Assembly (NCBI GenBank): GCA_963575645.1
Contig: OY754468.1
Coordinates: 23,770,465-23,834,464, forward strand
Origin: Xanthostigma xanthostigma
Taxonomy: Eukaryota; Arthropoda; Insecta; Raphidioptera; Raphidiidae
Direction: 5' to 3'
Length of the DNA: 64,000 nt
Made by a program: the position numbers and the translations under genes. Position 1 is the first letter of the stretch. Each line of letters begins with the position of its first letter. The notes under the pieces are model-generated. The model did not search any database and was not told where the DNA came from. It saw only the letters and a list, made by a program, of their open reading frames with translations. Of this stretch, positions 3,735 to 53,500 are shown piece after piece.

Positions 3735-4500
3735 AATTCTAAACACCGTAGAAAACAAATATAAGAAATTCATCAATTTCTGTCGATTTTTAATTATGAA
3801 AAATACAGTGATTAAGGTGTGAAGCTGAAATCACTAATTATCGCCACCTGGCGTTGCGGTTCTGAAGTTTGAGTGCGCCGCATCGCCATCTGACAATTGG
3901 AGTGAGAATTGCGCTTTGGGGTGATCGGCAAATATAACACAGTACAGAACTTCTATACAGTCTCTCTTCTCTGATACTGGATGTGGCTTCACAAATAACG
4001 GATTAATATTAATTACTTGAGACGCATAATTCCATTTTATTTTCTTTCTTGTCAGATTTATTTATATTAACCAGCTACCAAAAACCAATCCTCTAAAAAA
4101 ACCGCCTCGGCTGTTTCTATCGTAACAACTATTTTGACTGGTTCCAGTCGTCACTATACAACAATCGAGTACAAAAAAAAGGAATTTTTATATCCCTAGC
4201 TTTTTTCTTTTTAAACGACTTTGTAAAGCATTTGTTACATGTCTTTTTCGTGTCTGCCTATACTTAACAACTCGATGATTATTTCTCACAATTTAAATTA
4301 AAATTTATTAAATATAAAACTGTTAAAATGTGAATGTCAAAGACGACATTCTAAAAAAAAACCGCTTCTAAAATCAAAATAGTGTAAATAAATGGTCCCA
4401 ATAAGAAGCTATATTTTAATAGTTTCATACAATGCAAGAAAAAAAATTATTAAGTAGTGCCGTATTTAGGACTGAAAGTGTTATCAACAAAGTTATTTAA

Positions 4501-5392: not shown

Positions 5393-5400
5393 TCAAATAG

Positions 5401-8203: not shown

Positions 8204-11200
8204 CTACAACAAAATTTTGAGTTATGACTTTTTATACTGAAATAAACTGATGTTAAGTTACACCTCTCTGAATCATATCTTGTGACATACTGTTATTTCG
8301 AAACGGCTAATCGCTACACGAGCAATTCTTTAGTTACTTTTGAGTGACGTTCTAAAAAACCTTACAGAACCCGTTTATAGATAGAAACAACGATTTTGAA
8401 ATCATCTTTCGCCTTCTGTAACTCATATTAATAATTTCAAAACGTGACGCAAGGAGTAAGGCAAAAACTGCTTTGAGTACAGTAAACATTCCTCGACCGC
8501 CCGAGCAGCCACAGTCGCAACGAACAGTTGCAACACATACATATATTAACTACTCGAGCTATTGACTGCTCGTGATCATGGTTATCTAGGTCAGTGATGT
8601 CAAAGATACGGCCCGCGACCAGAATCTATCCAGTGAAGATTCCAATCTATTCTGAAATTAACTACCTCAAATATGACACCTGGCATCGATGAGTTTATCA
8701 AAAACGAGACCTCAGGTGTCTGGATCCTCAAACTCAAGATTAAGGCCAGGCGCACATTGAGACGCAGGCGACGTAGCGCAGCATAGGGCAGCGCAGCGCA
8801 GTTTTCTGTAATCCAGTAGTTAAAATCTACTAGCGCATATTGATAGGCAGGGCAGGGCAGAGCAGTACTGTGTCTGTGTTGGCCTGCGTCACGTAGTGTT
8901 TGCGACACAGTTTACTGCACACTGCGGCGAGACGTGCAACCATATGAATAAATAGAATGTCGTAGAATATCATGAACTTCATTAAATTGATTTCGGTTTA
9001 AGCGAAAGTAGTTTGTAAATTGTTTGTCAGAAAATTCCGATGACAAATTAAATTCACCATGACTTTTTCTTTTCATTAAAAATTTACTTTTCCACAATTT
9101 TTTACGTTTAGATAACGAATATAACAAAAAAAGTTCATTAAATTCATCATCAGAATCTGATTCAAAACTTAAATTTATTAAATTTTCAGCTATCATATCA
9201 CTCATGACTATGTTCACGCTCTGAACACTGACACGAAACTGCGTGTTAATATGCGCTCATATGGGTGACGTAGTTTTTTCTGCGCTGCGCTGCCCTATGC
9301 TGCGCTACGTCGCCTGCGTCTCAATGTGCGCCTGGCCTTAGAGTCCGGTCCGCTAATATACCCTAAATCGTATAAATGGCCCTTTAGAAAATTCAGTCTG
9401 ACACCCCCTGATCTAGGCAACACGACAGACAACAAAGAAACGTCTTGTCTTTTTCAAACAATTGACTGCTGGAGCAGTTGGCAATTGAGCGATTTGTGTA
9501 TGTTGTTCGACAATTAACAGCTCAAGGTGCCTGTATACAGCCAACCTACGCGATCCGCTCACGGTTCGGTCAAATATTCTTCGAGTGGTTTGAACGCAAA
9601 CATTCATACTTGTCGTTTACGCTTCGGACGACCATATCAAACGTACTTTGATCTGATCAAGACTCGACCGTTCAGTGGCCGATTGCCAGTGTGAATAATA
9701 ATAATAATCGAAAATATGTCATCGTCAATTAAAATAGTATAAAAATAGATATAATAGCTAATTCTTCAAAAGAGAAATGGATTGGTATTTTTTAAAAAAT
9801 AATCTTAATTAATTTGGATAAATAAACAAATGTTCACAAATTATAATATCACGATGTCAGATTTGAAATGGAGATGATAAAAGACCGAATGAATTGGAGC
9901 AATAGCGAACCGAGAACGACTCGAATTTAGCTTGGCAGCGTGGATCGAGCCTAAAAAGTCATTCAAAGTCTCATCATGCTAAAAAATCTAAATATAGCTT
10001 GCACAAACATCATAACAGGGTTTCCGATGTCATCAAGAAGTGATCAGATGGTCTAATAAAACATCTCAACCGTACAAAACTCAACAATACTGACGTTTCA
10101 TGCATTTTATCCTTTATATTAATATTGTTATAGCTACCGCAAGATAATTCTTACAAGGAGTTCAATTGGTGTTTTAAAATTAATTATCATCATAACATCT
10201 CCGACGACTGTGATTTACAGAAAATATTTCATCCCACCTACAGAATCTCGTCTCAGACACTGACAATAATTATCTTTAAATTTGTTCGTTGATCAAATGT
10301 GACTTTTATTATTTTTCACACACCTTATAACTTATAATTCTAATTTATAGATAAATGCATATTTGAATAATTACCTCTAAATGCAACTCCAAGGAATTCA
10401 AAATTCTTCTCAAACGATAGTGTATTATCATCACAGTCCAATATTACTCTAATTCTTTCTCCCATCTGCAAAGACAGAAAAATGTTCAGAGTTACAAACA
10501 TTTTATTACAATTACGAAAACTTCTAGCTTGGCATAGTTTTGAAACTGCTCAGCAACAGTTTCAATTTTTTTATTTATAAATCGCAACACATTTTTTCAC
10601 ATCTACGGACGGATTTCAAGGTGTGGAGGCACTGCGCCAACGAAGAGGAGGCCTCTAATTGTTTTTATTATTATATTTGCTAATCACCACCAAACTAATT
10701 GAAATACTATCGAACTGTATAATTATTAATATATAAAACGGTATTATCTACGATTTAAAATACAAACTTTCTGTTATTACTTTATACAAAATTTTATGTG
10801 TTCACCAAAGAAATAATTTGCCAAGTCCCGGAACTTCAGCCCTTCGCTAAATCGAGCCCTTTATACATCTATACAAATAAATAAAATTGAAGTGTCTGTA
10901 ATGCCAAAATAACAGCTTTTACTAAATGCATATGAAAGTATATATACGATACTTATAACAAAAAAAAAACAATTTTTAAAATCTTTGTTTGTTTGTCTGT
11001 TTGTTCCGGCTAATTTCCGAAACGACTGGAGCGATTTTGACGAGACTTTCACTGGCAGATAGTATAGCTGATGTTATAAGGAGTAACTTAGGCTACTTTT
11101 ATTTTACAAAAAGAATTAGGGTTCCGCGCAAAAAAAAATTTAAGTCCCTGAAATTGTGAACAAAAAACGATCCAAATAGGGAAGTATTATTACGTCCAGC

Positions 11201-13371
11201 GAAGCGGGCGGGTACCAGACTTTTAATATTATAGAGATTTCGTTACGATTACTAGAATTTTACAATGAAAAATAAGTGATTAAAACGTAAAAATTTACAG
11301 AAGACATTCAAAATGAAATTTCACTCATATCAGTTGTAGTTATTCCAAAATTCAGTTATAAAACAGATAAAAACTATTTAAACTCAAACACGCATTAGAT
11401 CCAAAAATTTTATGAAACCCTTAGCTATCAAAATGCTTTTAGTACAAAATGTACTCGTTCAAACATCACAAATATGACATCTATTTTGATTCACAGATTT
11501 TTTGATATAACGAAATAGCGGAGTGAGTATACCAAGTGTACATTTTTTTTAAATTTTCATTTAACAAAAAAAAAAAAACAAGTATATCGGCTGCTATGGC
11601 CATTATCACTACAAAAATAATAACAGTTGATTGCTGTGGTTATCATCACAATACTAAAAAATTATAAATTTATTAATAATAATGGCGCGTACACATGCGT
11701 TTTTTTTTCTTCACCTCCAAATTAGAACACTTTAAATATACCTACTATTCCATTTATAATTATTTTTACTTATGCAATATTTGTTATCAATATCTACAAA
11801 AAATAATTAAAACAGCAATACTGTGTAAAGTTAAAGGTACTCAACCCGCGGTACTTTTTATTTGACTATCGCGAGAATTAATACTCAACTCTAAAAAAAA
11901 GGGAATCGGCTATTATGACGTTAAAATTCATTTTGCAAACTTACGTAGTTTTGCGAAAGAAATCGTAAAATTCGTTTTACGAATACAGTATTATTACGGA
12001 AAAGTCTCAGCTTTGAGTCTCCAACATTTAGTTTATCCGATGAAGTTTCTGTGCGTCGCTACACCACTTCCCAGCAAACCGAACAAAAGTTGTAAAAAAA
12101 AATATTGACATGATGGTCTATTTTTTTTGCAATTATCGTTAGTCTTAGCTTTCAGTTGGGTAATAGATAATAACCTTGTTTTCATTATGCATTGCAGCCT
12201 AAGAGATACTATCGATCATAGTTTAACTAATCGATGCTGTTACTTCAAGTCTGTCGATTGGGCGTTCTTCTTAATCGACTTCGATGTTAAAAAATTGGAG
12301 TTTGACTGGACTCAATTCCAATCCGATAAAAAGTACCTAGCTAATATATTACTACAGTTATCTCGAACCTCCTCTAGTTTATTAATGAAAACAGAGAAGG
12401 TAACAGGGGATCGGGTTAGAAGTCACAAAATTAAACGATCTGTTATACCAGATGTAAGTTGTTCTGAGTTACTCGCTTATCGATGCATAATATCCAAAAT
12501 TGGAGCACACAATCGTTTGAATGACATTTTACAATATGGTGCAAGTTGATCATTTATATTTGTAAATAATCTAAATTTATCACATGTAAAACTATGTACA
12601 CTTATTTCTGTCTTTGTGTAAGAATAATCCTTCAATTAGTATTTATAAATAATGCTGGGTATACCTAATAGCGTATATTTACAAATCGCCTGTCGAATTC
12701 TCCCGACATTTCAATTAGCCAAAGAACCAAATAGCATGTAGGTAATTTGAACTTACCTGATATTTAGGTGCATTATTAAGTAAAGGATAATTTCCTTGCT
12801 CGTCGTTGTTGTGGAGCAGGTGGTTATCCACTAAGTTCCAGCCCCAGCTTTGGTCGTCCGAACCTAGCAAAGCGATATATCCAGGACATTGTAACGGTGC
12901 GTCTTTGGTCGCAATACCGACCACTGCCACGGTCCCTAAAGGTCCTTCCCATATCACTTCCCAGGCATGCCTGCCGTGCCGAAACCCGATTTTACCGCGA
13001 GAACAGTCTGTGCTTTGTGCTATTGGATTTCTGTGTAACGTAAACCCGTTTGGTTTAATGTAAATATTTCTAGAACAGTCATTTGGATTCCAAGCATGGT
13101 AAAAAGCACGTAATTTAGCTTTATAAGTCGGCACTGACGACAGGAGATCCGATTTAAGGGCTTCTTCGGCGAGTTTTGCGATGCAATGCATTCGCCACAC
13201 GTCATTATTTTCATCGTTTAAGTATTCGTACCACCTTTTACACACTAAAGAACAGTTTCTTAAATCATGAAGATCTAAATAGGAAAACATCACATCCAAC
13301 ACATTATCAGGTAGTCGAGACCAAAGATTTATTTCAGTATTTATTGGTCTCGCTGTCGTTTCGTCGACCAT
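8109..13371 (-). CDS. Fsn: F-box/SPRY domain protein Fsn (FBXO45/FSN-1 orthologue), three coding exons
   Basis: Model: join of 13371-12757, 10465-10375 and 8203-8109, 266 codons plus stop. Residues about 19-60 form an F-box (starting [13 protein letters not shown]), and residues about 90-262 form a SPRY domain ([33 protein letters not shown]). The protein ends VYLGPPLDG, as in the fly protein. All junctions obey GT-AG and keep the frame. In this family the F-box binds Skp1 and the SPRY domain selects substrates for a Highwire/PHR-type ubiquitin ligase acting at synapses. The start ATG at 13371 has A at -3 and G at +4. The N-terminus is slightly longer than the fly protein as I remember it. 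Introns are 2291 and 2171 bp, and intron 2 carries a Harbinger remnant. The gene is head to head with Dp. Identification is very secure; only the exact start and UTRs are uncertain. Confidence 0.96.
8743..9337 (-). mobile_element. PIF/Harbinger internal-deletion element
   Basis: Inverted ends AGGCCAGGCGCACATTGAGA and its complement bound 595 bp. TTA sits on both sides (8740-8742, 9338-9340), the 3-bp duplication expected for PIF/Harbinger. It encodes only an N-terminal transposase-like ORF. Confidence 0.8.
8912..9217 (-). pseudogene. N-terminal fragment of a HARBI1/ALP1-like transposase
   Basis: This 101-residue ORF begins with an acidic segment ([19 protein letters not shown]), then a basic stretch ([17 protein letters not shown]), then [20 protein letters not shown]. 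The last part matches the conserved YFRM...F region near the start of HARBI1-type transposases. Coding similarity stops there: the catalytic DDE nuclease half is missing and the element end follows. It is not expected to be an active transposase. Confidence 0.6.
10375..10465 (-). CDS. Fsn: Fsn coding exon 2 (SPRY middle)
   Basis: This 91-nt exon is too short to stand out as an ORF. It encodes residues 206-235, from [20 protein letters not shown] to FLGVAFR, plus the first base of a glycine codon. It is preceded by a TTTGCAG acceptor and followed by a GTAATT donor on the minus strand. The family usually has VGERI where this gene has MGERI, a conservative change at the exon edge. Confidence 0.95.
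10966..11222 (+). repeat. Lepidoptera-type interspersed repeat tail
   Basis: Phrases such as GGCTAATTTCCGAAACG, CACTGGCAGATAGTATAG, GGAGTAACTTAGGCTAC and a GCGAAGCGGGCGGGTACCAG end are those of a repeat I know from moth genomes. It is truncated. Confidence 0.55.
12187..12549 (+). CDS. Unrecognised 120-aa ORF inside Fsn intron 1, opposite strand
   Basis: The frame is open from after a TGA at 12106-12108 to a TGA stop at 12547-12549. The first ATG is at 12187. A T-rich tract followed by AG (12141-12142) could instead make this the acceptor side of a terminal exon starting near 12143. Codons are more balanced and GC content is higher than in the flanks. The protein is basic in the middle ([18 protein letters not shown]) with hydrophobic and aromatic residues early on, such as [13 protein letters not shown] do not recognise a family, and no transposase or reverse transcriptase motif is visible. 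It could be a nested gene, a terminal exon of a plus-strand gene, a retrocopy remnant or chance. Confidence 0.3.
   Translation: MHCSLRDTIDHSLTNRCCYFKSVDWAFFLIDFDVKKLEFDWTQFQSDKKYLANILLQLSRTSSSLLMKTEKVTGDRVRSHKIKRSVIPDVSCSELLAYRCIISKIGAHNRLNDILQYGAS
12757..13371 (-). CDS. Fsn: Fsn coding exon 1 (F-box and first part of SPRY)
   Basis: The exon encodes residues 1-205, from [17 protein letters not shown] to NNAPKYQ. Translation stays open for 13 more codons into the intron, but homology stops exactly at the GTAAGT donor (minus strand, 12756-12751). The donor falls between codons (phase 0). The SPRY residues are almost unchanged from fly Fsn as I recall it, indicating strong constraint. Confidence 0.96.
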
Positions 13372-14521
13372 CTTGACACTAAAAAGTGGCCAGGAGCGCC
13401 ACCCTAAGGATATTTATATTACTTATTTATATGTCGTTCTATACTCCTTACATGAGTTATAACTCAATTTTGACAGATACGTTCAAAACGAAAATAATAA
13501 ATGTTTTTTTTTACTAATTTGCTGGGTTATGTCGTGTTTCTTAACTTTTAACGTAATTCGCATGACTAAAAGTGTTTTGTTTTTTTTTTTAAATGAGAAG
13601 ACAAGGCAACAATAAATATAAGTTAAAAATCACAAAATATATATTCATATTATATGGTACAAAGAATCGATTCGTCTTATAATAATTTTGACAGCAAATC
13701 AAGAGTCATTCAAGTAACAATATTTAAATATCTCTGCCGATAATAGAAGGCAAAACACATGGTGATGAGCCGGCGCCCAGTGAGGAAATGCGGTGCGAGC
13801 GGGAACTTTAATACTGTTTTCAATGTTACCAACGCGTGTATAATTATTTTAAATGTTCTTGTATTTGATAAATTTCTATTACTTTTTGAATTTATAATTT
13901 CTTTTAAATTAGCTTTACATAAAATAACAAAATTCAGATTCAATTTTGAAAACATCAGAAATGTCTCGCATTTATATGTCAAATACCACACCGTGTTGAA
14001 AAAGTACTTTTAATTTAAATATAAAAGGTCTTATATTATTTCTGATGTAATTAACTAATGAAAGTAACAATAATATTACAATTTTATTTAATTTAAATTC
14101 GTGTCAATATTAAGTGTTTTCATTGTTGTTTGATTGGCAACAATGATCCCACGTGAGTAGTGTCGCCCAATCAGCTGTGATGCTTTGTGCCCGCCGCCAA
14201 GCTCGGTTTCAGGTGTTGGTTTGCACGAAATCGCTCTATTTTCAAATACGGTATACGTGTCATATCTAAACCTAAATATTTTAAATTACTACTAAATGAA
14301 AGAACGATTATTAATTCTTATGCACATGTTTTCAGTTGTGAATTGATTTGACCGGGTCATCACTTTTTAATTAAATGAATTATGTCTAGTTGGAGTCGCC
14401 ATTTTGGGGCAACTAGGAAATCGACGGCAGAATTGAATGCATGATTGAATAAAATAAGTGTGTTTTTGTGCGTTATTAATTATTGTGATTATTATAACAT
14501 TTAATTAAGAATATAAGAACA
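13372..14521. promoter_or_regulatory. Shared Fsn/Dp divergent promoter region
   Basis: The 1150 bp between the two start codons holds 5' UTRs and, probably, a bidirectional promoter. Around 14130-14240 the GC content rises, and ATTGG (14133-14137), a CACGTG box (14150-14155), CCAAT (14167-14171) and a CAGCTG box (14172-14177) lie within 45 bp. A GCCATTTTG motif resembling a YY1/Pho site occurs near 14398. Oppositely oriented CCAAT boxes are common in NF-Y-driven divergent promoters. The Fsn-proximal half (13400-14100) is AT-rich without clear motifs. Transcription starts cannot be read from sequence. Confidence 0.55.
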
Positions 14522-14570
14522 ATGACACAACAAAATAGCACCGTGAATTTGTTAATTCATGACGCCTATG
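14522..14570 (+). CDS. Dp: Dp coding exon 1
   Basis: ATG at 14522 has A at -3 and encodes [16 protein letters not shown] plus one base of glycine. The donor GTAAGT is at 14571. Intron 1 is only 260 bp. A further upstream start was not found. Confidence 0.85.
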
Positions 14571-17500: not shown

Positions 17501-20500
17501 TACCGCCTGAACGTATGAACTTTCCGCATTGGCGTGTCTAATCCCCCCAAAGGGTAAATGTTAGACTTTCTGCCTTACATTTGATGCCGAAAGTATGCAC
17601 TTTCGATCGAGGTATGAAGAAAAATATTTTTTGTCCTACTCACAATAAAGAAGGTAGTACTTTAGATGTATATATACTGACCTGAAATCGGTCACTTTAC
17701 AGACAAGTGATGAGATCATGAGAGGCGGTTTTTTTGAAGTAAAGTTTGGTACAATTTGTGTACAGCAAAATTCACTTCAACTATCGGTTGTTATTTTCCT
17801 GCACATGTGTGCGGGAAAGTAAAGGTCGCTGCACACGAGGCTAGAAACGCTGCTAGCCGGTAGGCTGGGTACGAAGCTGGAAATGACGTCACTGCGGGTT
17901 GACCTGCTAGCTCACGAGATAGGTTTTAAAATTAGAACAGGGGCTATTTTCCTTGCTAGGTATGAGTAAGAACCAGTCAGTAAGCAGTATCTTGTCACGT
18001 GGGCACTTGAACAAATGCACACAAACCAACATGACGTCATTCTGCTCAGAGTCAGAAAACATACGTTTGGCTCCGTGTTTATATTCGAACTGTCACTGCG
18101 CGCGCACCAAATCTATCCACAAAACAAGCTAGTCTCGAGCACTTAACAGCAATCAAGAAAACTAGCGCTAGAAAACCCAGAAAATACAGTGTATACCAGC
18201 GTTGCCAATTTTTTTTTTTGCCAAGTCGAGATTTTGGAACTCTTTGAGTGAAAACAGCGGGATTCTTTCGTCGAAAGCGGGACATAGTAAAAAAACGTAT
18301 ATAATCAGAAGTTTTCAAATACCTATTTATCTTTTTATTTAAATTAAAATTACGTTTACGTGACGATAGATAGCAAAAATAGCCATAGAAAATGTATTTG
18401 AATAAAAATATAATATTTTAAATCAGATTTACCCTATCGTTAAATAGTTGAGTCTTATTCGTATTCAGAACAAAAAAAAAAAAAAAAAAAAACAGAAATC
18501 AAAATCAAAAATGTTTTATTCATTAGAAAAATATGGCGTTTCAAACAATAGTCTGTGGAGTGAGTGTTATACAAATTGCAACTTACAATAAGAGAATAAT
18601 TATTTATAAGAATTACTTATTCATGATATTTCTGTGAAGATTTAACTTCTTTTAAAGTTATCTCCGAGTTATCCCCGAAAAGCGGGACTGAGCCTGTCCC
18701 GCACGGAATATTTAATTTTGATTTAAAAATCGGAACGTCCCGCCAAAATCGGGACGTCTGGCAACGCTGGTGTATACCTATCTAGCCAGCAATGATATTT
18801 TAACTCGTGTGAATATTAAAACTCGCAGACGCTCGTTTTAACATAATGTAACCACTCGTCAGTAGCAATACACCGCATTACATTTCAGGCTACTATTACC
18901 AAAGACTACTTTACAAAATCGTTGTGTAATACAATATTGTACGCTGTAAATTGGATAAACATAGTTCATTAAATAATATGCTTCGTCTTTGATTCAATCA
19001 AAACACAAATATACATTATCAGTTTATCAACAAGTATTTTTTTGTAACTTTGTAACATTCGTTATATTGGATATACAGGCCAGTGCAAAAGTCAATTGAC
19101 ACACAAAGTGTCTTCTTGCAGTGTTTATAATATATAAAAACTTTTTAACAAAAAAATTAAACCGCCGAAAAACTGAAAAGCAAAAAATAATAAATCTTTT
19201 TATTTAACTAAGTTCTATCTAAGTAGTTGAACGTATGTGACAGTCTAGTATATCTAAGTAATTTTGAGTCGGCGTCAACAATCCTTCGCCGAAAATCTCT
19301 GAGCGTTCACGAAGTTTATGTCAGCGACAGAGCAACCCGAACGGGCACACACTTAGGGCACACGTCTTTGCGAGTGGTCGTGTGGAGAGCGCATGTTTGG
19401 AATGTTAATGTTTATCGCTGGAGATTTCACGTATCATTGTTAATTTGATTTGTTTATTTCTTTTAGTGATCTTTGTTCATTGATTGTTTGACGCCGACTC
19501 AAAATTACTTAGATATACTAGACTGTCACATACGTTCAACTACTTAGATAGAACTTAGTTAAATAAAAAGATTTATTATTTTTTGCTTTTCAGTTTTTCG
19601 GCGGTTTAATTTTTTTGTTAAAAAGTTTTTATTTTATAATTTTTTGTGGCTATATAATTTATAATTGTAATACACAACTCAGCATGAAAATCTGTGAGTG
19701 AACAATAAATCACCCCTATTTTCCCATCCTTAGGGTAAGATTTTTTTTCCAAATTTATATGAGACCAGCCTCGAGGTATACCCTATCCAATAAAAAAATA
19801 ATTATCAAAATCGGACTACTCTGTAAAAAGTTATGCGTAGTCATACATTACAATCTGTGAGTGAACAATCAATAATCCCGTTTTCCTACACTTAGGGTTG
19901 AATTTTTTTTTCCAAATTTATATGGGACTAACTTCGGGGTATACCTTTTCCAATTAAAAAAAGAATTATCAAAATTGGACTACTCGGTAAAAAGTTATGT
20001 GTGGTCATACATTACAATCAGTGAGTGAACAATCAATTATCCCCTGTTTTCCTACCCTTAGGGTTGGAATTTTTTTATCAAATTTATATGGGACCAACTT
20101 CGGGGTATACCCTTTCAAACAAAAAAAAAATTATCAAAATCGGACTGCTCTGTAAAAAGTTATGCGTGGTCATACATAAAAAAAAAAAAAAAAAAAAAAT
20201 ATATACGCGTCGACTTGAGAACCTCCTCCGTTTTTGTTTTTCGTCGGTTAAAAACAGAGCCCCATGTGCCATCACAAATTATAAATTGTTTAAAGCTACG
20301 TTTATACTAGAGATTTATTTCCCTACAATTTTCTCTCTGTAATAAGTATATTTAAGTGTAAACCTTGCTGACATAAGCTATTGGAGATTTATCACAAAGC
20401 TGAGATATATTACTTGACATAAAATGTAGTAAATGTAAACGCTGCTGAAACAAAAATCAAGTAGTCTCGGACATAATTATCAAAAGTTGTACAGCCGTCT

Positions 20501-23500
20501 ACTTTTTCTAGGATCTCTCGAGATATTTTGTGATTGTATGTATGCTAATACGTGAACGAAATGTCGGAAAAAAAAAGAGTGGACTCGTACAGAAGTTGAA
20601 TCAATGGCCCAACTAGATTTACTAATTCGTCGAGATCCGTTGAAGACATTCTTGCAAAATTTTGTAATTGTATTGGGTCTCCAATTTTCAATTCATTGCA
20701 TAACTGTGAGTAAGCTCCTAGGACACTTCTTCTCAACAACCAATTTCGCACTCAAAGTTTCCTTTTCTTTCTTTTTTTCATGCAATAATAATATTATTAT
20801 TGCAGCCGCCTGGCGTTTAGTGCAAGGCATGATGATCAAAACTGTCGACATGTGGAGAGTAAAGTGTCGACATATTTCTCTACCTTTGGCCTAAACACAA
20901 TGCTACACTTATATCGACATTTTTTCTCAACCAGACTGTCAAGCAATTTATTCATTCCCATTTATGTCATAGTATAAACACATCATGAAATAAATCTCTA
21001 GTATAAACGTAGCTTAAAGCTTGCATAAACTGACAGACAGCTATATTGTAAAATGCATTTTTTTTTAAATTTAACTTGAAGAGCGATCTTTTTCTATGTA
21101 GATCAATCATTTGTTTTTGCGTAAGTACATCTAATGTGCCCGACATGACAGAGTTTCGCACGGCGATAGTAGACTGCTAAAGCTGTAATTATATTATCTC
21201 ACAATGCTTACGTACTAAGGTCATTGCCAAATCAGTTTTTTAACAATGCTTCCTGCAATCCAGCGTAAGAGGAAAATATAACTATTATAGCGGTCCGTCG
21301 CGATTTCACTCGGGTGCGATAGATATAATTCTGCAAAATGTATTTCGTTTGCGGCCCGGCGTCTGAACTAATGGCTTTGAGCAAATTCTACAAGATTTGC
21401 TTCTGAACTAATAGCTGTGAGTAAAGTCTATGACAGGGCTACCCAACCTATTAGTAGGTGCGATCTACTTTTATTTTTAAATAGTGTCATCGCGATCTAC
21501 CAATATGCGGGAAAAAAATAAAAATCGCTTTTATAACGTTGCAAATGTAGAAAGTTTATTAAACATTTAAGTGGGAACAAAAATTTTACAATATCGAGTA
21601 TAGTCATATAAAAAAATAAAGAAACAAAATTAGGGATATAGTGAAGTAATTTTAATGAGATCGCTGACACTGTCCAATTTGAATAAAAATTTCACTATAC
21701 TTCGATTTAGTTTGAAAATTGAATTTTTGGATGTTAAAATAGATAAAGTATAAAGATCTACTTAAAATTACGCCGCGATCGACCGGTAGATCGCGATCGA
21801 CTGGTTGGGCACCCCTGGTCTATGAGATGTCGCTACATGTTACTAAAACAGTTCATTTTCACAAAATATCGTAATTTTGTACAAAATATTTGATTAAAAC
21901 TACCCTATAGCGTAAGTTGGACCAAGCAAGACACATTTACAAAATTTCATTCAAATCGGTTCAGTGGTTTTGAAGATTAGCATGAACTAACATCGTGATA
22001 CGAGATTTTTGTAGGTATACCTATATAAAGATTACCTTTGATTTTTGTTTTTTTTTTATTATTTTAATTGCAAAAAAAGTTATAAAAGCTAATTACTGTT
22101 AAAATGATAACCTTGAAACAAAATAATATTGCAATTTCGTATTGCCAAACAATTACTCAACTCGAATCAAACTAAAGAACACCGGGAATTAATATTTTAC
22201 CTGATAGTTCATTAATTTCGTCGCAAGGCTTGCATTTCGAGCATAAAAGGTTCAGACAATTTACGCCTGGATGCGTCTACAAATTACTGTTAACATACCA
22301 ACTTTTTATGAAGTGACATAAAATCGCGAACGTCTACTACGTGAGCGCATCGGGGCGCGTGCATCTATTGAAAAAAATATACATACAAATTACAATAATT
22401 CCAGGTTTACGAATTCTATTAGATTTTTAGTATTCCGTGCAAACGAAACACTTACGGAGTCACTTCGGTGTCAGTCCGTTCGTCCGTCTGTCATAGGAGA
22501 TGTTTTTACTAAACGCACGTCCATTTTTAAGGTTTACATCTAAAGGAAAAAAGGAACCCTTATAGAATCACTTCGTTGGCCGTCTGTTTGTCGAGACTCT
22601 TGTTCTCAGAAACGCGTGAAGTTATCAAGTTGAAATTAATATCAAATACTCAGGTCTGCAATCCCTTGGAGCTGTGAAAAAATCAAACTTCTAAGTTAAC
22701 GCAATCAAAAGATACGGCCGTTTATGTGACACTCGCAAGAGAGTCAAAACCTATAGGGTACTTCCCGTTGACCTAGACCAGGCCTGGGCAAATGGCGGCC
22801 CGCAGCGCAATTTTATCCGGCCCGCGAAGCATTTTAAAAAATTTTAGAAAAATTGTAGCGGAAATAGAATGCGCTCTTTTTTGCTCTCCGAATGCGGAAA
22901 TAGAACGTGAGGATCTTTTTTTCTGCAAATTTTTGGCCCGCCGATCAAAAGATTTGCCCACCCCTGACCTAGAATCATGAAATTTGGGAAAAATCCGAAA
23001 AAAGTGAATTTGTAGTTACGTAGGTACATCAAAAAAACGATTTTTTTTACGATTATAAAATTATTTATAGTTGGTAAATCGACAGCGACTTATGTTGATG
23101 TATGGTATACACTATACACTATACACTATACACTAAGCGGGAAAAATCTTCGAAACTCGATTCCCGTGATGGACGAACTATTTACTTGCTTCAATGTTTA
23201 GCTTGTGTATCCACTGAAATTTTAAAAGATTGGCGCCTTACATAACATTTTAACAATACCTAAAAATCAAGGTGAAATAGTAAATACATTGCAAGGGTTA
23301 GCATCGTTTAAATTTCCGGCTATCAAAGGGCCACGGGAGGGAGAGTAGATAACGAAAATTCGTACTATATCTTAAAAAAATTCCTAAGACAAGCGCTGTG
23401 TAGCCAGTAGATAGCTCTACATTCATATTTGGTGATAGTTCGATGTCTTCTAGTTTCAAAAGGTCAGTTTCACGAGCGGTGATTTCATTGATGTAACTGC

Positions 23501-26500
23501 ATAAAAAAGTCACATAAAAATCAACTGGCGTGTATTAGATTACGTGAAATTGCGGACGGACATAACCTATAATGAAGCACAGCGCATGCAGCAAACGAAC
23601 ATTCCTCGTTTTCCCGCCTTTATTGCCCACATGATATTTCCGTCATAACTGGTTTTAAAAGTTATTATGTTTACTAAACGCGTTTAGAGTATAATAGTAG
23701 TTCAAGTTATCCGCGCAGGCAGATACTATAAATATGTGTATTTCTATTTCAAATTGCGCTTCCTTGTCTACAATATAAGCTTTGCGATTTGTTTGACCTC
23801 GAATGCTAATAAACAAGTTTCGGAGCCCGGAAGTACCGAAACAAATTTGATAAAACAGTGTTGATTTGTGCGATAAATTATGGGACTCTGGATTTGTCGA
23901 ACTGGAAAAAATGATTTATTTCCCTGAAAGTATCCTGCTTTACCAATCGAACGATAGTCGAGTCTTTAGTTACTGCGCCTATTGTAATATAATTTGAAAG
24001 AAACTTCCTGTGAGTTTGTTTATAAGATGACTTTAAATAATAAATAATTTTTGCGCGGAATCTCAAGCTGTGGAAATTATATTGTCTAACGATTTCATGT
24101 TAACCATTGTATTTTTCTAATTTATGTACATATTTTGACGGAATTATCGATTTTTAATTTTTATGCACATTTACAACAGAATTCCGCCTGCATTCTGTAC
24201 AAAGTACAAAGTGTAAGAAAAAAATGAGTGCGTGAAACCTTTACGCGCGGTTGAAGTAAAACTTCTTTTAATTATTATAGTTGCCAATGTTGCCATAATA
24301 AGGCACTTACACTATTGGCGTCACTATTAGCTATGTTTCACCTTTGGTTCAAGCTGGTTTTTGTACAGATGCGTTTTGATGTCGCCTATCTGTCAGTCGA
24401 TGCCTTTATGTAGCGGAAATCGATCACAAAATTGGTTTGCCTCTTTTCGTTCATGCGTTTTGGTGCTATCTGTCAATCGATGAATTAAGTAACAGAAACT
24501 GCGTAAACACGTTACTTCCGTCCGAAAAAAGGTCTATATTTTCGATAGACCTCGAAAAGTTTATTGTATATTCGATGATTTTTACACTTTGGTAGTCACA
24601 CAATTAAAAATGGCACAGCATGGAGCAGAAAAGCATGATCGTGAGATGCCCACTGCCCATGTTTTTTAACGCAGTAGCGATTATCCGACATCCTGTAATT
24701 CGTTCGTGTATAGCTGACAGGTTCTTTTTAATTGCGACCCAGACATGCCTCTTCAGGTCTGTATCTCGATTATTTTTTAAGATAACCCAATCAATCAATG
24801 ATATGAAATTATCTACAAAATGACAACTAAAAAATTCCAGCCAATTGGGCGACAGGACCATTCCAACTTCTAAAATGTTGACATTTGATTATAATAAAGA
24901 AAATAAAATTTCTTATATCGCGTGAGGTGACGCGAGTAATGGCTAGTATTCAATATGATATATAAATCTTTTATAACGTCTGATTAGAACTCTTCATTAA
25001 TATGATATTTGCTATTCGTTGCCGTGGTTATCTACATATGTTCCACGTCATGTAAAAATTAATCAAAGCATGCCGAACTAGTTTATTTCTGACAGATTCA
25101 TAGAACAAAAGAGCGGCTGATTTTTTTTTATTTTCAAAATATTTCCGTAACTATAAAGTTTAGGAAAATTTTTTTTAAACGAAACTTTCTTGAGAAAATA
25201 AATAGAATAATAAGCCGTCATGAAAAGTATACCATTATTATATAAAAAACACCGTTATAGCATATATCTCTTCTGCGCGTGGGCCGATTTTCCCCAAAAA
25301 CAATAGGGCTCTTAATATTTGCATACCAAACATCCTCCCAAACTTTGGTTTCAATCCGCTCATCCGTTTGACGTGTATCGTGTTCACAGACTAACAGACG
25401 CGCACAGAGTTTTTTTTCAAAAATATGTTTTTTGGATTCGGAGGACCTCAAAACGGAAAGATATTGTAAAATTTTTGAAAAGTGATTTTTGACCTAATCC
25501 TAAACCAGTACCATTCCCCACTTGTGGGTCGAAATGGTAAAATTCCAACACGTTCGATTTTCCTGGAGACTGAATTGTTGACCACAAAATAGAACGCACA
25601 TGTTCATACCTGTCTCCGAACACTGGCGATTAAAAAGTTGCTCTTGATTTTCCTGTTGCAATTTTAAACCAACAAATCCAAGGAATCATTCACTGAAATT
25701 AATATTGCTTAGATATCCCATAAGTCATACGAAATCATCGGTCAGATAATCTGACGTTTGACTTCATAAAATCACATAAAGTGAAGTACAATAAACAATC
25801 TCTTGTGTATTCCACATGAAAATATTGAAATCATTATGGCGACATACCTATTCAAGGATTCAAAATTCACTTGAAATTGTATATTCTAATCGTAAATAAT
25901 CCGAAATGAACAATCCCCTGTATAAACCTTATATACAAGGAATATTTAGATAATCTGAATTAACAGAAAAAAATTAATAGTCCGACCGAACTTTCGGTTT
26001 CGGCGAGTTTTGGCGTTAAATTCGAGTTTTGGTTTAGTTTCAGTGTCAGTAGAAAATCTGCCAAAACTAGGACCGAAATAAGCAACTTTTCAGTTGCCAG
26101 TTGGCGCTTGGGACAACAGCGAGCAACTTTCAACCGTCTAAATAATCACCGAGACTAAGGCCTAGTTTATATGAGAGGCGTTCAACGCGCGTTGGCCCAA
26201 CGCGCGTTTACAGTTTCTATACAATTGTATAGGACTGTTTATATGATAACGCGCGTTGGTGGCGCGTTGAACGCGCGTTATCATATAAACAGTCCTATAC
26301 AATTGTATAGAAACTGTAAACGCGCGTTGGGCTAACGCGCGTTGAACGCCTCTCATATAAACTAGGCCTAAAAAGTTGCCAGTATGCGGCTACCCTAAAA
26401 TTGATTACCGACTTGTATAGGTAAATTATCCGCATTATCTAATGAGATACAATTGCGAGTTGACCCTCAGATGTTAATAACGAATGCAGAACGGGTATAA

Positions 26501-41500: not shown

Positions 41501-44500
41501 CGAAGCCGGACCGAACCGCTAGTATAAAATACATTAAAGAAGGCTGGGTACCTATTTTATGGTAATGAAATATTAGAGCTGTAACAAACCATATGTATTC
41601 GTTACTGATGAGTAACCGCCTGACTCGAAGTAACGAATCGTTACTTACAAATGCATTTCGTTTCTCGCATTTGTCGTATCCATGTCAGTTCGACTCGTTT
41701 GATGCGGTTATACGTTATACGAACGAAGTCATACCGCATCGCGTATGCGACGCGCCTCGATGCGATGGTACATGCTTGATGCTGTTAGTACACGATTGTA
41801 TGTCGTATGAAAAGTAACGAGTAACGTAATGATACGAAAGTAACGGGTACTGGTTCTTTAAGTAACGAATACATACGGATACACAATTTCTCGTTACTTT
41901 TACAGCTCTATGAAATATTAAGCAATAGTATATTACATCACAAGGGTCGAAAATTGAATTTTCGGCCCTGCGCGCCATGATGCCCTCGGCTTCGCCTAGG
42001 GCTCATGACGCTGGGCCGAGATTTCAACTTTTAAGGCCCGTGTGGTGTATACGATTTTTCTTCATATCCGCTCGAAAGTACATACTTTCGATCGAGGTAT
42101 AAAAAAAAATATATTATCTACGTACACATGCTTACTGTTTCACGTATTGCTCTATACTATTTCCGGACAGACTATATAACTGAAACTTTTCATGTAATTG
42201 TCATTCGTAATATTTGGTAAGAAACTTCATGTTCAGTGTATGTATAAGAACAATAATCGGGGCTCGTTCATGTCCCCTTATAAATAAGAAAGCCGTTAGA
42301 ATGATGCCTCGGCGGTTATGTGTTTGTTTGGGCGAAGACCGAATAGCTGCCAACGACGACTTGATTTTTTTTAAGAATTCAAAATATTTTTCTTGTTAGG
42401 TATAGGTAGGTACTCTTGATTAGTAAATTAGATATGTATTTTGTAATATTTCACTGCTAAACTGGTGTATAAGGTACATCACCTAAAGTGAATTTCAAGA
42501 TGTGATTCAATTAAGGGGATACATACACTTTTTTTTTGTTGAAGTCTGTAACCAGGAGGTCTAGCTTCCTATACTTGCCGTGTTTCGAGACGGACCGTTT
42601 TCTGGCGCACGCGAGATGGCGCTGTTATCATTATATCTGGGAAAACTTCGGTTCTTTCCACCTGTTTTCGCCATAGTTACCAAAGTTGTTTAACTTCACA
42701 GACACACTATACACACGTGCAAGCCATGAACGTGTGTGCGTTACCAAGTAGCTGACGCGATATTGGTGCATGCGACAGATATCGGTCCACCGCTACGCTC
42801 GAGCTGGGTCTCCTGGTTACAGACTTCATGACTAATCTATATACATAAAATCCCCGTGTCACAATTTTGGCCGCGCTAATCTCCGAAACCACTGAACAGA
42901 TTTTAATGAAATTTTGTAAATGTGTCTTGCTTGGTGCAACTTACGCTATAGGATAGTTTTTATTAAATATTTGGACAAAATTACGGTATTTTCTCAAAAA
43001 ACTTGTTTGTTTGCTTCGGAACTAATTTTGTTCAGAAACAAACAAACAAAGCTGTTTTAGTACCAAATAGCGACATCTATCTGTTAGAACTCGCAACTTG
43101 CTCAAAGCTATTAGTTCAGAAGCAAATATGATAGCTAGACAATTCATTAATTCCACGTCCATAATATGTTTCCTAGACAAACAATACGATGTAAACAACG
43201 CATGTGTTTTGTTTTTTGTGTATCATTGTTGGATCGTTACGTATCTCGAAAAGCTCTTCGTAAATCAAATTTAACTCTTAACCTAACGCCCTTTTCTCAA
43301 TCCTGTAGGTTTTTTGATCGAAAAAAAACTTTCTTTTTTTATTATTGAACACTAGCGGTCACGCCCGGTTTCACTCGGGTGCAAAAGAACTAATTGGGAA
43401 GGGAGGGACATGAGTACGCACATTCATCTTAGTTTACCGAGAAGAATGTTGTGTCCAAACTTCATAATGGTCGGAGTTACCGTTCAAGTTTTTGTCGTTA
43501 AAAAGCAGTATTTATACTTTTTTTTAAGTAATACATTTTTTTAACAATAATTACTTTAATTAATAAAATATAATAAATATTTAATTGAAAACACTAGGAA
43601 AATTATTTTTATATAGATAGGTACCTATACAGGGTGTCCCTAAAAGGTCTTTACAAAAGCCTACCACATATTATTCAGGCCAAAACAACTCGATACAAGC
43701 AAACTTACCTCAGTACTTGTAGTTGTTAAGTTTGGGCGCTAGACGGCTCTTAAGTTACAATTTTCAAATCGTTTTTGCTTTATAACTTTGAAACGGCTCA
43801 TGAGATTTTACTCAAATTTGGTACGTTGGCCAAGCTTTATTGGGCAATAAAACCCATATCATAATAATGATGAATATCATTCCATGGACGTAGAACTTGA
43901 TTTTTTCGATAATTAAACATCTAAAACTTCTACGCCAATGGAAAAAAATCAGTTTGAGTATGAAATCTGGATCACGCGACTCATTTACTACATAAAGGGT
44001 ACTCTTGATAAAATTCGATTACTCTCATAGTTTCGACAAAATTTTCATTTTAGTAATTTAGAGCATAATTAAATATTAAAACTCTAGTACTCAATTCTGG
44101 ATTTTCTTCAACACGGTCTAAAATATCTTCTTCGACTTCAGGAATCCTCACAAAACGCTGTCTTCCATAATCACCAGTTCTAGGAGCAAAATGACCGGTC
44201 TCCCGAAGACGCCTCTCAACTGCAGCAAAGGTTGGGTGGCTGGGTATGAATATCACTGTCGTGTACCCAGCCACACCTTTGCTGCAGTTGAGTTTTAATA
44301 TTTAATTATGCTCTAAATTACTAAAATTAAAATTTTGTCAAAACTATGAGAGTAATCGAATTTTATCAAGAGTACCTTTTTTGTAGTAAATGAGTCTCGT
44401 GATCTATATTTCATACTCAAACTGATTTTTTTCCATTGGCGTAGAATTTTTAGATATTTAATTATCGAAAAAATCAAGTTCTACGCCCATGGAATGATAT

Positions 44501-47500
44501 TCATCATTATTATGATATGGGTTTTATTGCCCAATAAAGCTATGCCAACGTACCAAATTTGAGTAAAATCTCATGAGCCGTTTCAAAGTTATAAAGCAAA
44601 AACGATTTGAAATTTGTACACTTTTAATGCGTCTGGCAGGATGATAGAACCCTCGAAACTGTCTGGCTACTTGTGAAACATTATTTAATAACTCTCCAAA
44701 CAATATATATAAAATTCAGGTTTTATAATATAACGTAAGTATAATTACAAATTATAATAGTTTAAGGGTGTCTGGCAGGGGGTTGGAACCATACTAAGTG
44801 TCTGGCAATGAGCGACGCGAGTTTTAATATTGTTACGAATGAAATATTAAAAAATTGAGTTTTATACTATGACGAATTTGAGATGGAATTTTATACTCCT
44901 TTAATACCTGTTACCTGCCAAAGCCACCACTACTCAGGTTTCATGGGTGGGGATCATTCTTACCTGTATTGGAGACATCCATAGAAAAACTTTCAGCTTT
45001 TATAAAAAGACGAAGGTCTGGCTGCCGCGGGCTCTTGGGCTATTAATAAAATGATTCACTTTAATTATTGTCAAGTATTTATGACTGGGAAAATAAGTGT
45101 AGGTACTTGTCTTTTATATTTTATCTAGTGAACCCATCCGAAAATTTTAGCCAGACTCACAAATAGTCGTTTTGTGTCACCATCCGAACAAACTATTTCA
45201 TATTCGCCGACTGGGAAAATAAATACCAAAAAATTCACTGCCTCCTGGACTTATAGTAAATTGGAAATGTCTCCAAAAATAAAAAAAAAATAACATTAGT
45301 CGCACTATCAAACCCTGCGAATAAAGCAGTCCATTTCTAACATGCAATATGAGATTTAAATATAATATTTTTAATCTGTAGAGTAAAATCGTTCTATATT
45401 AAGTTCTATACATTCTCAGATGGGTATAAAACTATACTAATCTTTTTTACCCGACTACGCCAAAGCAAAAGGAAAGATTATAATTTTATTAGAATCACGT
45501 GCACACACCAAGGACGTAGATATTTTTTTCTGGAAGAATAATCACGAAGGAAAGTGCTAAGCAAAATATTAATTCCCAAACTAATTTTGCATATTCTTTT
45601 TCAAAAAGTATATCTAAATTTTATTTTTAGCCAGGTGTATTATTTTCAGTTTTATTCTTTTCTTATTATGATCCTAAGGGGGTTAATTACCCCATTTACC
45701 CCCCCCCCCCCCCCCGTATCTACGCCCTTGGTATACACTACGTTTAACATATTGTCATCACTCATCACTAATGCGTAATGTAAGGCATGATCGAGCCATA
45801 TCAACAAAACTCACGTCTATATTGAATTTTAAATGAAATTAACTGTATTATATATTTCATTATCGAATGCAAAACAAAATTTGAACGTTAACTCGTGCGA
45901 TTATCCTGGAAATGTTTAATGAAAATACGAAAAAGAAAACACAAATTCCTTTACACGCGACGTACACAACAAACAAGGGGTCAGCGTACAGCGGTATTAT
46001 AATTCAACAGATGGTATTTGAATTACGCGTTATATCAGGACCGAATTGGTGTATATTTCTAAATAGCCGAGGTCGCAGGGATGTCCATGACCATCGTCGT
46101 CAGAGTCACTTATGATACCCCCACAAAACTATTGCTTCCCGATCGGAACAAAATATGTAGGCACTCACGACGTACGAATTCGGAACACATTATCGGATCG
46201 GATTGGGTGAAATACGGGTCCAATGTGCAAGCGCAGCAAGGCCGCTGCACACGTGACTGATTTTCCCGTTGGGATCGTTGCTGGGACCTGCGCCGGCTAC
46301 GAAAGTGAAAATGACTGCGGAATATTTTTCGTGATTATTTTGAGCAAGAACCGATCAGAAAACAGTATCTTGTCACGTGGGCGACATGAGCAGACGCCCG
46401 CAACCAAACATGGCGTCATGGGGTGTGTTCTGTTCAGAGACACTTTTGTTAACATTTGAACTGTCATTGCGCGCGCACCCAACCCATCTACAAAGCCAGC
46501 TTCAAAACACGCATTCTGTGAAGCGAACATGTCAGAAAAGCCAGCACATCACAGCACGCTTGAAACCTAGCAGCCAAATCTAGTAAAAAATCTAACAGCA
46601 AAACCAGCCTCGTGTGCAGCGACCTTAAAGGTATGATTCCGAAGGCGGCTGCAGACGGCAACCGCAAACGTGCTGTTGCCTGCGGTTGGACCAATGTAGA
46701 ATTCAGCGACAGATTTCGGCGGCAGTCGGTTTTTCCGTGAATGATGACAGACGATTTTGACGTTCCCGGTACTATTTTGAGCCTTTTGTTGGAAGAGGAA
46801 GATGACGATGAGGTCGATGACTTTTTGTTACTGTATACCAGAAAAAGAAGAAAGCTCACGATGACTTTATTCAGAAATAGACCAGATGAAGGAAGTTATT
46901 CAATGTTGATTAAAAAGCATTTGTTAAGTGACGAAAAAATATTCAGAAGCTATTGCCGTTTAAATAGCGTGGCCTGTGTCATAAATAACTGGATATTTAG
47001 CCACCAAATTAATCAGTTTTTCCTCGCCGGCGCCCGAAAAACTCATTTTTCACGTGTTATCACTTATGCAGTTGGCGACACTACTATGCAGTCGACGACA
47101 CTACTGGTTCAGGAGCAGTGGTGCGGTCCGCAGTCGCGGCAAGCTACGACGGCAGGCGACAGTGCCGCCGCGCTCCGAATGCATTTAATAGAAAAAATAT
47201 AATATGGATACCAGTACTGCCGCTTGCGATCTGCCGCTGCAGTCTGCGGTTTGCAGTCTGCGGTCGCATTCGGAATCATACCTTAAGAAAGATTTTTATA
47301 TAAGTTTTGCTGTCCGCGTCCGTTCAAGAGAGTGTGTTGCATATAAAAATACGGTTGGACTTGGCAAACTGTCCGTCCAAAAGAGATGTCCGTTAAGAGA
47401 GATTTCGCCGAAATTTGGCGTTAGCCCGTCTCTGTCCAAAAATGTGTGTCATGTGTATTGTTCTATTGAGGAACAGCAGCGTGCAGCGGGGTTGTTTATC

Positions 47501-50500: not shown

Positions 50501-53500
50501 AAGAAGAAATTTTCTTAATAAAGTTTTCGAAATGTTTATTTTTATAGCTCTAACATATATTTATTCGTGTTTTTAAAAAATTACACAAAAGAAGGAAAAA
50601 ACTTCAATTTTATTTTATTATTTCAAGGTTGGCAATTTAGTCAAATTGTCAACTGCAAATTTCATTAATTAACTTTTAAAAATAATAATTGATTATTGAA
50701 TTAATAATAACCATGAAATAGAACTATCTTAATAGGTATAGGAAAGACGGCGAGGAGTTTTGAGTGTATTTTTCAGGCACAGGCGAGATTATTGTTGGAA
50801 TCGCTTCGTTTTAGGGTGTAGTTCAACCCCCTAAGTTCGCTTACAAATTGTTGGTGTGCTTGATTTTATAATTGACAATTAGTGACGAAAATAGTGCTTT
50901 TTTCGCTACTTCCTTTAATATCTCCGTTCCTCTTGACTTTTAGTATAGCATATGCATTGAGAAAGTTGTTCCTTATGAAATTTCCTAAAAAACGAGCACT
51001 GACCGAGGTCGCTAAGTGCAATTGTTAACTTGCAATTAGCCCCGAAAGTTAATAAAAACACGTTTTTTTCACTATTTTTTTACTAAAAAATGACCGCACA
51101 TAGATGGCTGAAAATTTTCAAAAATGATGTCTATGTGGACCCAAACATGCATGAATAATTTTAGCGTCATCGGTCAATTACTTCTCGAGTAATTAACTAT
51201 CACCTTTTTTTTTTATTCCTTAATTGCAAATTGCGCCATTTTTTTCACAAACGGGTTTCGCTGGTCGGACCAAGCCAGAAAAATCACAAATTTATTCAAC
51301 TTAAGTATCCCGTTGGAATTTTTGGAAAAAATTAATTCTAACCGATTTTATAACTATTGAATATTGGAAAATTTATATGGTTTTATACGTTTGTATCGCT
51401 AAAGAAATCGTTATAAAATCGGTTAGAATTAATTTTTTCCAAAAAAAGCACTATTTTCGTCACTAATTGTCAATTATAAAATCAAGCACACCAAGAATTT
51501 GTAAGCAAACTTAGGGGGTTGAACTACACCCTAAAACGAAGCAATTCCAACAATAATCTCGCCTGTGCCCGAATAATGCACTTTTTAATGTTTTTACATC
51601 CTCGTCGTCTAGCCTAATATAATATGATCAATTAAAAAATAATCCTATTATATTTTTCTTTTCCTTTCTAAAAAATAAATTTAGAATAGATGTTCAATTA
51701 GTGGAAAGTACCACTCAAACCTCCTTAAGTATTCGTAAAATTATATATTTTTTTAATCTCCGTTCAACGAAAACTCTTTACAACGGAATAAAATACCCGG
51801 TCCCTACAATTTCGCTATATACAGAATGTAAACGCGTAAGGTGCACATAGGGAAATTAGCATTGGGAAAAAATACTTGGATCAGAGTTCGCCATGACTGC
51901 ATTAATTGTTATTATACGCTTTATATTAACTTCACTTGTAAGTTTGTATGTATGTATGTTTGTAACTTTCATTTGGACTACAGCAAGTCGTTTATATAGC
52001 AGTATAATATGCCAACCCAGTGAGTACACTGGCAGCCGTGCGGTCTAAGGGTACGTGCACCACGGATGATAGCTGATAGCTTTGCAGCGCTGATAGAATT
52101 TTATCGCATATTCATATGAAAGCGTGCACAACCAAGCAGAGAGTACATCGAGTATGCGAATTGTTATAATCGCTTGTGTTTTAAAGAATGGTATTTACCA
52201 TTCTTCTGCGCGCTGCAAGCTGACTGCAGATTGGGCCCCGCGAGTTTTACAAGCCTTGGCTTTATTTTTTCCAAAATATAATCAAACGTGACTGGCTCCA
52301 TTCTCATATATTCAAAAAAACGCTGCGGATAATTTCGTAATTCATTAAAGAGGTAATGATATTCACCAAGCGTAGATCGGTTCTTATTTATAGGGTGAAC
52401 GTGGTATTGTCTAGACAAAAATTTAGTTTGCCTATTTAAAATAAACCATTTTGTCGCTGCGAAAGCGAAATAATCATCGTCGCTACTACTCAACATCTTG
52501 AAATGGACTGGCTATTGAAATTATTCTACAATCGCAGCAAGTAAACAATGCTTAGTTGTGCACACCCATCAGCGCTTGTATTCCACTCTCTAAGCTATCA
52601 TCTAGTATCACAGCTCCGTGGTGCACGTACCCTAGGCACGGGTCTTCGCTGACGTCAACTCTCGGCATCACGAGTCGTGGTTCTAATCCCGTCCACGCCG
52701 AAAAAAAAATTGTTTTTTTTTTCGGCAAATTTTTTACAATAAATCGAACTAAAAAGTGGAAAATAAATATAAACTAAAAAACACACTTTATATCAAACTA
52801 AAAAGTGAAAAATAAATATATAGTTAAAAAAAACTAAAAAACACGCTGTATATCGAACTAAAAAGTAAAAAATATTTTTTTTTAAAATAAGCTTAAAAAG
52901 CGTGGGGCGCTTTGTTCCACATTTTCGTACATCGAGCGCCCCACGCTTTTTAAACTTATTTAAAAAAAAATATTTTTTACTTTTTAGTTCGATATAAAGC
53001 GTGTTTTTTAGTTTTTTTTTAACTATATATTTATTTTTCACTTTTTAGTTTGATATAAAGCGCGTTTTTTAGTTTTTTTTAAACTATATTTATTTCTATG
53101 GGAATTATCGTGGTAATCTTGAGGATTTCTATTTTATTTTGATTTATCTTTATTTTACTTGGCTTTTTTAGTAATAAAAAGCTCTTATAAATCATTATTT
53201 TAATTTTTTTGTACAAAAATAAAACAAAAAAACAACTCCATCTGTTTGGAAACATTTCATTCAAAAATTTTCTGATGGGTATGACGTATGCGCGTTGGTA
53301 AATCAGTGACCCAATGTCTTTAGGTTCAACACGAATAGGCGGAGATATTTGATCTCGCACCATATTTAAGTATTTTTGGAAATTTAATGTCCCATTAACA
53401 AAAAAGTCCGATTATCATTATCATTTGAGTATTTTCTTCGGTAGTATACACATTCATTTTGCAAAGGAATATTATCTGTCAAATTGAAAAACAAGATTTC

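Follow-up and report, generated by a model that had tools for sequence, protein, structure and literature searches.

Four PIF/Harbinger Mini-Elements of Xanthostigma xanthostigma: Very Probable Deletion Derivatives of Different Two-Gene Transposon Families

Four short transposable elements, E1 to E4, lie in a stretch of 64,000 nucleotides from the insect Xanthostigma xanthostigma (contig OY754468.1, positions 23,770,465 to 23,834,464 of the forward strand; G000:C5:23770465-23834464). This whole stretch is called the window. Each element keeps a piece of the start of a PIF/Harbinger transposase gene. The four are very probably non-autonomous derivatives, similar to miniature inverted-repeat transposable elements (MITEs), of different PIF/Harbinger families that carry two genes, one for the transposase and one for a protein with a MADF or Myb domain. 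Which codons they retain would follow from the gene layout of the full-length elements, and from the fact that such elements are detected through a readable N-terminus.

Copies and relatives were sought in the 28-contig, 623-Mb assembly that contains the window. The genome searches score the best candidates only, so all copy counts are lower bounds. Loci found in this way are referred to by L numbers, and contigs by C numbers.

Layout of the Full-Length Relatives

An example of a full-length relative is L039 (C9, approximately 2348-5765), which is flanked by a TAA duplication. Reading inward from one terminal repeat, it contains MADF exon 1 (plus strand), transposase exon 2 with the DDE domain (minus), MADF exon 2 (plus) and transposase exon 1 (minus), followed by the other terminal repeat. 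The predicted structure is that of two opposed genes of two exons each that are interlocked, such that the second exon of each lies within the intron of the other and the first exons lie near the tips. The four splice signals, a donor and an acceptor for each intron, all fit this model. Transposase exon 1 ends in LR and is followed by GTAAGT, and exon 2 is preceded by TTTACAG. In the MADF gene, GTAAGT follows exon 1 and TTGCAG precedes exon 2.

The same order is seen in two elements on C10, the E4-like L049 and the E3-like L091. In both, the transposase donor, the transposase acceptor and the MADF acceptor were found. A partial layout is present in L047, where transposase exon 1 adjoins MADF exon 2, and in L131.

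Domain matches agree with the exon models. The Pfam MADF profile is divided in L039 between exon 1 (positions 1-37) and exon 2 (44-84). Positions 1-158 of DDE_Tnp_4 fall entirely within transposase exon 2 in L039 (E 1.3e-34), L049 (E 1.2e-33) and L091 (E 8.7e-27), and all three elements have a second gene with a Myb/SANT or MADF domain. A match to HTH_Tnp_4, below the cut-off (E 0.0016), also lies in transposase exon 2 of L091.

The distances from the tips are similar in the two elements for which they were taken. L091 measures 2749 bp between its repeat ends. Counted from one of these, the transposase ATG is at a distance of 175 bp and exon 1 ends at 475 bp; counted from the other, the MADF ATG is at 215 bp. 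The corresponding values in L039 are approximately 147, 450 and 199 bp, and at its second-gene end exon 1 of that gene fits within approximately the outermost 330 bp.

The Four Elements of the Window

The initial annotation described four elements with unrelated terminal repeats at the positions in Table 1, each lacking the DDE nuclease, and both points are borne out. Terminal inverted repeats can be read directly in all four, and their sequences are mutually different. Probes for the DDE domain reach at best E 0.88 inside E1-E4, so no Harbinger-type DDE_Tnp_4 domain places them, and they are classed as deletion derivatives only. The flanking 3-bp target-site duplications (TSDs) are of the TWA type; they are exact in E2 and E3, and the window copies of E1 (TAA versus TTA) and E4 have one mismatch. 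Several other copies of E1 have matching duplications, TTA or TAA, as judged by eye.

That each element keeps the transposase N-terminus is supported by homology to the first exons of DDE-bearing relatives. The fragment of E1 is 54% identical to L039 exon 1 over 83 residues (E 3e-27). The fragment of E3 has matches in four elements of C10 (56%, E 3e-13), and on the same strand of each of these a DDE match follows approximately 1.44 kb further downstream. The fragment of E4 can be aligned with exon 1 of L049, although no statistic accompanies that alignment. The fragment of E2 matches E4 (E 5e-6) and another exon 1, in L043 (E 1e-4). The Pfam search with the four fragments gave no transposase match, and neither the PDB search nor the plasmid search with the open reading frame (ORF) of E4 gave any match. 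The fragments are open in E1, E3 and E4; that of E2, read from the minus strand, is divided over two frames, so in this element the N-terminus is not retained as a single ORF.

The transposase start is not the sole content, as had been supposed. E3 also holds the start of the MADF gene on the opposite strand, which aligns with positions 1-16 of the MADF profile (E 0.15, a value that misses the cut-off of Pfam). E2 probably holds the start of a second gene too; sister copies share the pattern MSxKxEWTRTEVxSMA next to the transposase piece, and in the window copy the frame is shifted within an A-run. No Pfam match was obtained for this start. A MADF exon-1 probe found no match in E1 or E4. Where MADF remnants are present, they hold less than half of the MADF domain.

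Table 1. Positions in the window of the four elements, classed as internal-deletion derivatives, and of their parts.
Feature	Position	Strand	Remarks
E1, 595-bp internal-deletion derivative	8743..9337	-	18 copies aligned
E1 terminal repeats, ~60 bp	8741-8801 / 9280-9340		inverted repeat, 100%
E1 transposase N-terminal fragment, ~88 codons	8942..9205	-	open frame runs on to 8912
E2, 721-bp internal-deletion derivative	20294..21014	-	28-bp terminal repeats; TSD TAA/TAA; at least about 30 near-full copies
E2 transposase N-terminal fragment, broken, two frames	20596..20830	-	
E2 probable start of second (Myb/SANT-like) gene	20561..20612	+	sister-copy pattern; name by resemblance only
E3, 655-bp internal-deletion derivative	46629..47283	+	TSD TAA/TAA; at least 28 near-full copies
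E3 transposase N-terminal fragment, 74 codons	46744..46965	+	position of the junction from L131, whose match begins at E3 base 338
E3 MADF gene N-terminus, ~27 codons	46963..47046	-	tblastn E 0.002 and 4.5e-4
E4, 584-bp internal-deletion derivative	52048..52631	-	TSD TAA/TAG; 41 copies aligned
E4 transposase N-terminal fragment, ~84 codons	52248..52496	-	aligned with L049 exon 1

In each of the four, the transposase fragment begins 115-184 bp inside one end. The retained ends are 337-419 bp long on the transposase side and 199-318 bp on the other, where E1 and E4 keep 199-200 bp, E2 302 bp and E3 318 bp. The 199-200 bp of E1 and E4 are close to the distance of the second-gene ATG from the tip in L039, and shorter than that in L091. 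The low end of the window copy of E4 is unlike that of most other copies.

Origin by Internal Deletion

Evidence for an origin by internal deletion can be provided by elements whose ends match a longer relative and whose centre is missing. This match is exact for three loci of a sister family of E3. L092 and L094 consist of bases 1-320 of L091 joined to bases 2462-2749, a deletion of 2141 bp that leaves ends of about 320 and 288 bp. In L095, bases 1-320 are followed by ten other bases and then by 2484-2749, so that its deletion is slightly larger. L092 and L094 have their terminal repeats in common with L091, and all three derivatives are 86-92% identical to it. They keep approximately 48 transposase codons and 17-24 MADF codons, that is, both gene starts. 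The proposal that internal deletions arose independently is supported, and for this family the deletion can be followed base by base.

E3 has the same anatomy, in that its 74 transposase codons meet about 27 MADF codons of the opposite strand. One of its ends can be followed into a longer relative, L131, which is 83% identical to E3 from base 338 to the E3 end. The MADF start of L131 is the same as in E3 and runs on to cover positions 1-40 of the profile (E 2.5e-9). L131 was considered as the parent of E3 and rejected, since it contains only the MADF gene and no transposase exon. Two other loci, L041 and L042, also keep both gene starts, with other breakpoints, and their terminal repeats are related to those of E1 (79% over 68 bp). 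L040 was rejected as a single full-length element because it is a patchwork; its part at 4363-5308 was counted as a derivative.

Separation from the DDE domain is common in these families. No listed DDE match lies within 5 kb of 57 of the 61 loci (typed from 75 rows, E1 copies included) or of 49 of the 51 relatives (typed from 152 rows), both counts being approximate.

The initial annotation held that the deletions end at nearly the same place. This is true of the window elements, for which the last transposase codon kept is 74 in E3, 78 in E2, 84 in E4 and 88 in E1. It does not extend to the 12 families compared, whose breakpoints are spread between about codons 45 and 110. The last codon, read by eye off translations, is 45 in L042, 48 in L092, L094 and L095, 58 in L041, 88 in L040, 90 in L093, 94 in L098 and 96 in L096, and the family of L033-L038 keeps the whole of transposase exon 1, about 110 codons. 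All 12 families were collected via N-terminal similarity, so junctions upstream of the readable part could not have appeared among them.

In L033-L038, the unit with the whole exon 1 recurs at a spacing of approximately 800-825 bp at several loci (for example G000:C1:4229935 and 4230735), in the manner of a tandem array.

Selection on the Retained Reading Frames

If the retained ORFs encoded a useful product, they should show purifying selection. Counts of synonymous and nonsynonymous changes fit neutrality in all three families tested (E1, E3 and E4), with omega (dN/dS) between 0.74 and 0.94. Among 18 copies of E1, the unique changes within the ORF are 10 synonymous, 30 nonsynonymous and 5 stops, against a neutral expectation of approximately 10, 32 and 3 (omega 0.92-0.94), and 7 of the 18 have neither a frameshift nor a stop. 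The 41 copies of E4, 40 of which were chosen by protein score, give 30, 86 and 4 (omega 0.86-0.87, P 0.28) when only element sequence is used and the non-element flanks of truncated copies are excluded; 11 of them are frameshifted upstream of codon 78.

E3 shows how the choice of copies matters. For this element, 40 of the 58 candidates from the DNA search were scored. Omega was 0.45-0.48 (P 0.02-0.03) in a set of 21 copies, made up of the window copy and 20 that had been picked for their protein score. Protein similarity as the criterion for picking copies can produce a false selection signal. With seven copies added, the 28 near-full copies give 16 synonymous, 37 nonsynonymous and 2 stop changes (omega 0.74-0.92, P 0.19-0.44), and purifying selection on E3 was rejected as a sampling effect. 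The substitution rate per base in the 28 copies is 0.0152 within the ORF versus 0.0147 outside it, and the frame is open through codon 71 in 21 of them. In E2, about 30 copies of which are listed, the transposase frame is open in one of the six copies read and broken in the other five.

These tests speak to the copies, and selection may act in a single source or master copy.

Short Elements without the N-Terminus

Among the matches listed, at least 11 short ones cover the last 188 bp of E3, and 10 of these 11 have an adjoining inverted copy of the E3 end. The four that were read, L126-L129, are 239-253 bp long, with terminal repeats of the E3 type and not a single transposase codon. Since such elements have multiplied, the N-terminus is not needed for the multiplication of the E3 type. 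L126-L129 are fold-back mini-elements derived from a single E3-type end.

How the Gene Starts Come to Be Retained

Each of E1-E4 would have been made by one large internal deletion. Interrupted gap repair is the usual source of such deletions in elements of this kind, and it is assumed here for the derivatives. The outer 475 bp of L091 and the outer 450 bp or so of L039 would comprise the whole of transposase exon 1. Given a DDE exon in the centre and first exons near the tips, a derivative of 584-721 bp that keeps both ends can hold first-exon codons only; at approximately 600-700 bp there would be no room into which the DDE exon could fit. Transposase codons would be kept in any derivative that retains more than about 150-180 bp of the transposase end.

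The apparent convergence of the four elements would then reflect gene geometry, together with the noticing of such elements through their readable N-terminus. The parents of E1, E2 and E4 would have shared the interlocked layout. The derivatives would be moved by proteins made elsewhere by full-length elements, with their ORFs as passengers, and subterminal binding may call for 200-400 bp of each end. Ordinary internal deletions can account for the retention, with no need for a useful truncated protein.

Several observations weigh against this account. Among the best candidates scored, no exact full-length parent of E1, E2, E3 or E4 was found, only relatives. The exact map of parent and derivative concerns the sister family of E3 and none of E1-E4, and the set contains no full-length element of the E2 type. 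Splice signals and domain matches are the basis of the exon models. In L049 the terminal repeats were not located, and in L091 the MADF exon 1 of that copy is out of frame. The list of DDE matches comprises the best 150 of 264 candidates and may have missed some DDE exons. In seven of the 12 families the break lies at about codon 78-96, which would allow for a mild clustering. Finally, the ORF has fewer unique indels per kb than the sequence outside it in E1 (30 versus 66), E3 (38 versus 54) and E4 (60 versus 120), and in E1 also fewer unique substitutions per site (0.170 versus 0.256). In E4 the substitutions are not reduced (0.476 versus 0.440). The deficits probably stem from base composition, from repeats outside the ORF and, in E4, from the choice of the sample.

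Alternative Explanations

A need for the DNA itself is compatible with the gene geometry and is a fair candidate for part of the story, though short of an even chance. A few hundred subterminal bases would be needed at both ends for transposition, would set the minimum size of derivatives, and would carry the first-exon codons along. The length of both ends, 199-419 bp in E1-E4 and much the same in L092 and L094, is as this would have it. The one-ended elements of the E3 type, however, have multiplied at 239-253 bp, which argues that long DNA of the transposase side is not required there. A preferred deletion breakpoint directly after the FxxYxRM region, one of the causes initially suggested, is very improbable. 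It would account for the window elements at about codons 74-88 and for L040, L093, L096 and L098 at about 88-96, but the junctions near codons 45 (L042), 48 (L092, L094 and L095) and 58 (L041) and the complete exon 1 of L033-L038 do not fit it, and the families were sampled by the N-terminus.

The other suggested cause, that the retained N-terminal polypeptide is itself selected, for instance as a repressor or as a dominant-negative partner of the transposase or MADF protein, is very improbable. Truncated P-element proteins are a precedent for a repressor of this kind. The many open frames, the signal in the 21-copy set of E3 and the lower density of indels within the ORFs (and of substitutions in E1) could be read in its favour. 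The signal is lost with 28 copies of E3, however, where the ORF changes at the rate of the sequence outside it; E1 and E4 are close to neutral, and the frame of E2 is mostly broken. The predicted helix-turn-helix moreover lies in exon 2, which the derivatives lack, and E3-type elements exist without the ORF. That the ORFs arose by chance and are not transposase fragments has a practically negligible probability: the lack of Pfam matches would agree with it, but the fragments match the first exons of DDE-bearing elements and lie next to a terminal repeat, as expected. Scattered deletion points, neutrally evolving ORFs and copies without them had been named beforehand as outcomes contrary to a shared breakpoint or benefit, and each of these was found in part.

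Derivation from two-gene elements by ordinary deletion is therefore retained as the best explanation, and it has some wider consequences. It suggests a rule by which the gene layout of a full-length element decides the content of its deletion derivatives, and it cautions against deducing a function from ORF remnants in MITEs. Should the interlocked layout of the two genes prove general, it would deserve documentation as a compact arrangement. A more far-reaching idea, which is unlikely, is that this architecture is old and shared among transposase-MADF Harbinger elements and spreads mini-elements with both promoters and first exons, perhaps acting as antisense or first-exon traps that silence the full-length element. 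The host genome would in that case receive many copies of both gene starts.

Other Observations

DDE_Tnp_4 matches are concentrated on C10. Of the 150 that were typed, 89 lie at 8.5-16.5 Mb of that contig, within 8 Mb of the 623-Mb genome. Possible reasons are a transposon sink, a region of low recombination or linked to sex, or a piRNA cluster. Near Harbinger genes on the same contig, ORFs at L049:5112-6584 and L047:1721-2779 have the motif VRGHSFLP in common and perhaps belong to another transposon type.

The window was also scanned for terminal repeats with exact TWA duplications. Five matches were found versus a mean of 1.3 after block shuffling, too few to give a useful denominator, and the scan missed E1 and E4. 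Two inverted repeats are possibly fold-back elements, one at 43756-44618 with arms of 329 nucleotides (96%) and one at 19134-19632 with arms of 145 nucleotides (100%). A nearly palindromic element of 210 bp with a TAA/TAA duplication lies at 26159-26368. The ORF at 12715-13413 presumably encodes an F-box/SPRY-like protein, and the one at 55536-55943 is taken to resemble an exon of a Dp-type transcription factor.

Comparison with Known Systems

The KP-type repressors of the P element are the product of an internal deletion that keeps an N-terminal fragment of the transposase. The elements described here differ from them in that no sign of selection on the amino acids is seen and the predicted helix-turn-helix is not retained.

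The interlocked exon layout was not found described in the literature searched, which includes fish Harbinger elements in the available text of PMC9179366 and leaves Repbase and most subscription papers outside its scope; this is weak evidence for novelty. Pairs of a PIF transposase gene and a MADF gene, and co-domesticated copies of them, are known from insects (PMC9710019). These pairs consist of the same two genes, and the transposase gene has two exons in BPLG1 and BPLG2 of the cockroach. Exons that lie within the intron of the other gene are not described in the available text of that source.

Two-gene PIF/Harbinger elements have known internal-deletion derivatives as well, such as Tourist-like MITEs and those in the MtPH families of Medicago (PMC2213677). 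As in X. xanthostigma, the MtPH families include simple internal-deletion derivatives, with short elements alongside longer relatives. According to the available part of that account, the order of transposase and orf1 varies among them and the transposase gene has introns, and an interlocked layout is not described there. In X. xanthostigma, unlike in those families, the kept ends carry the first exons of opposed genes.

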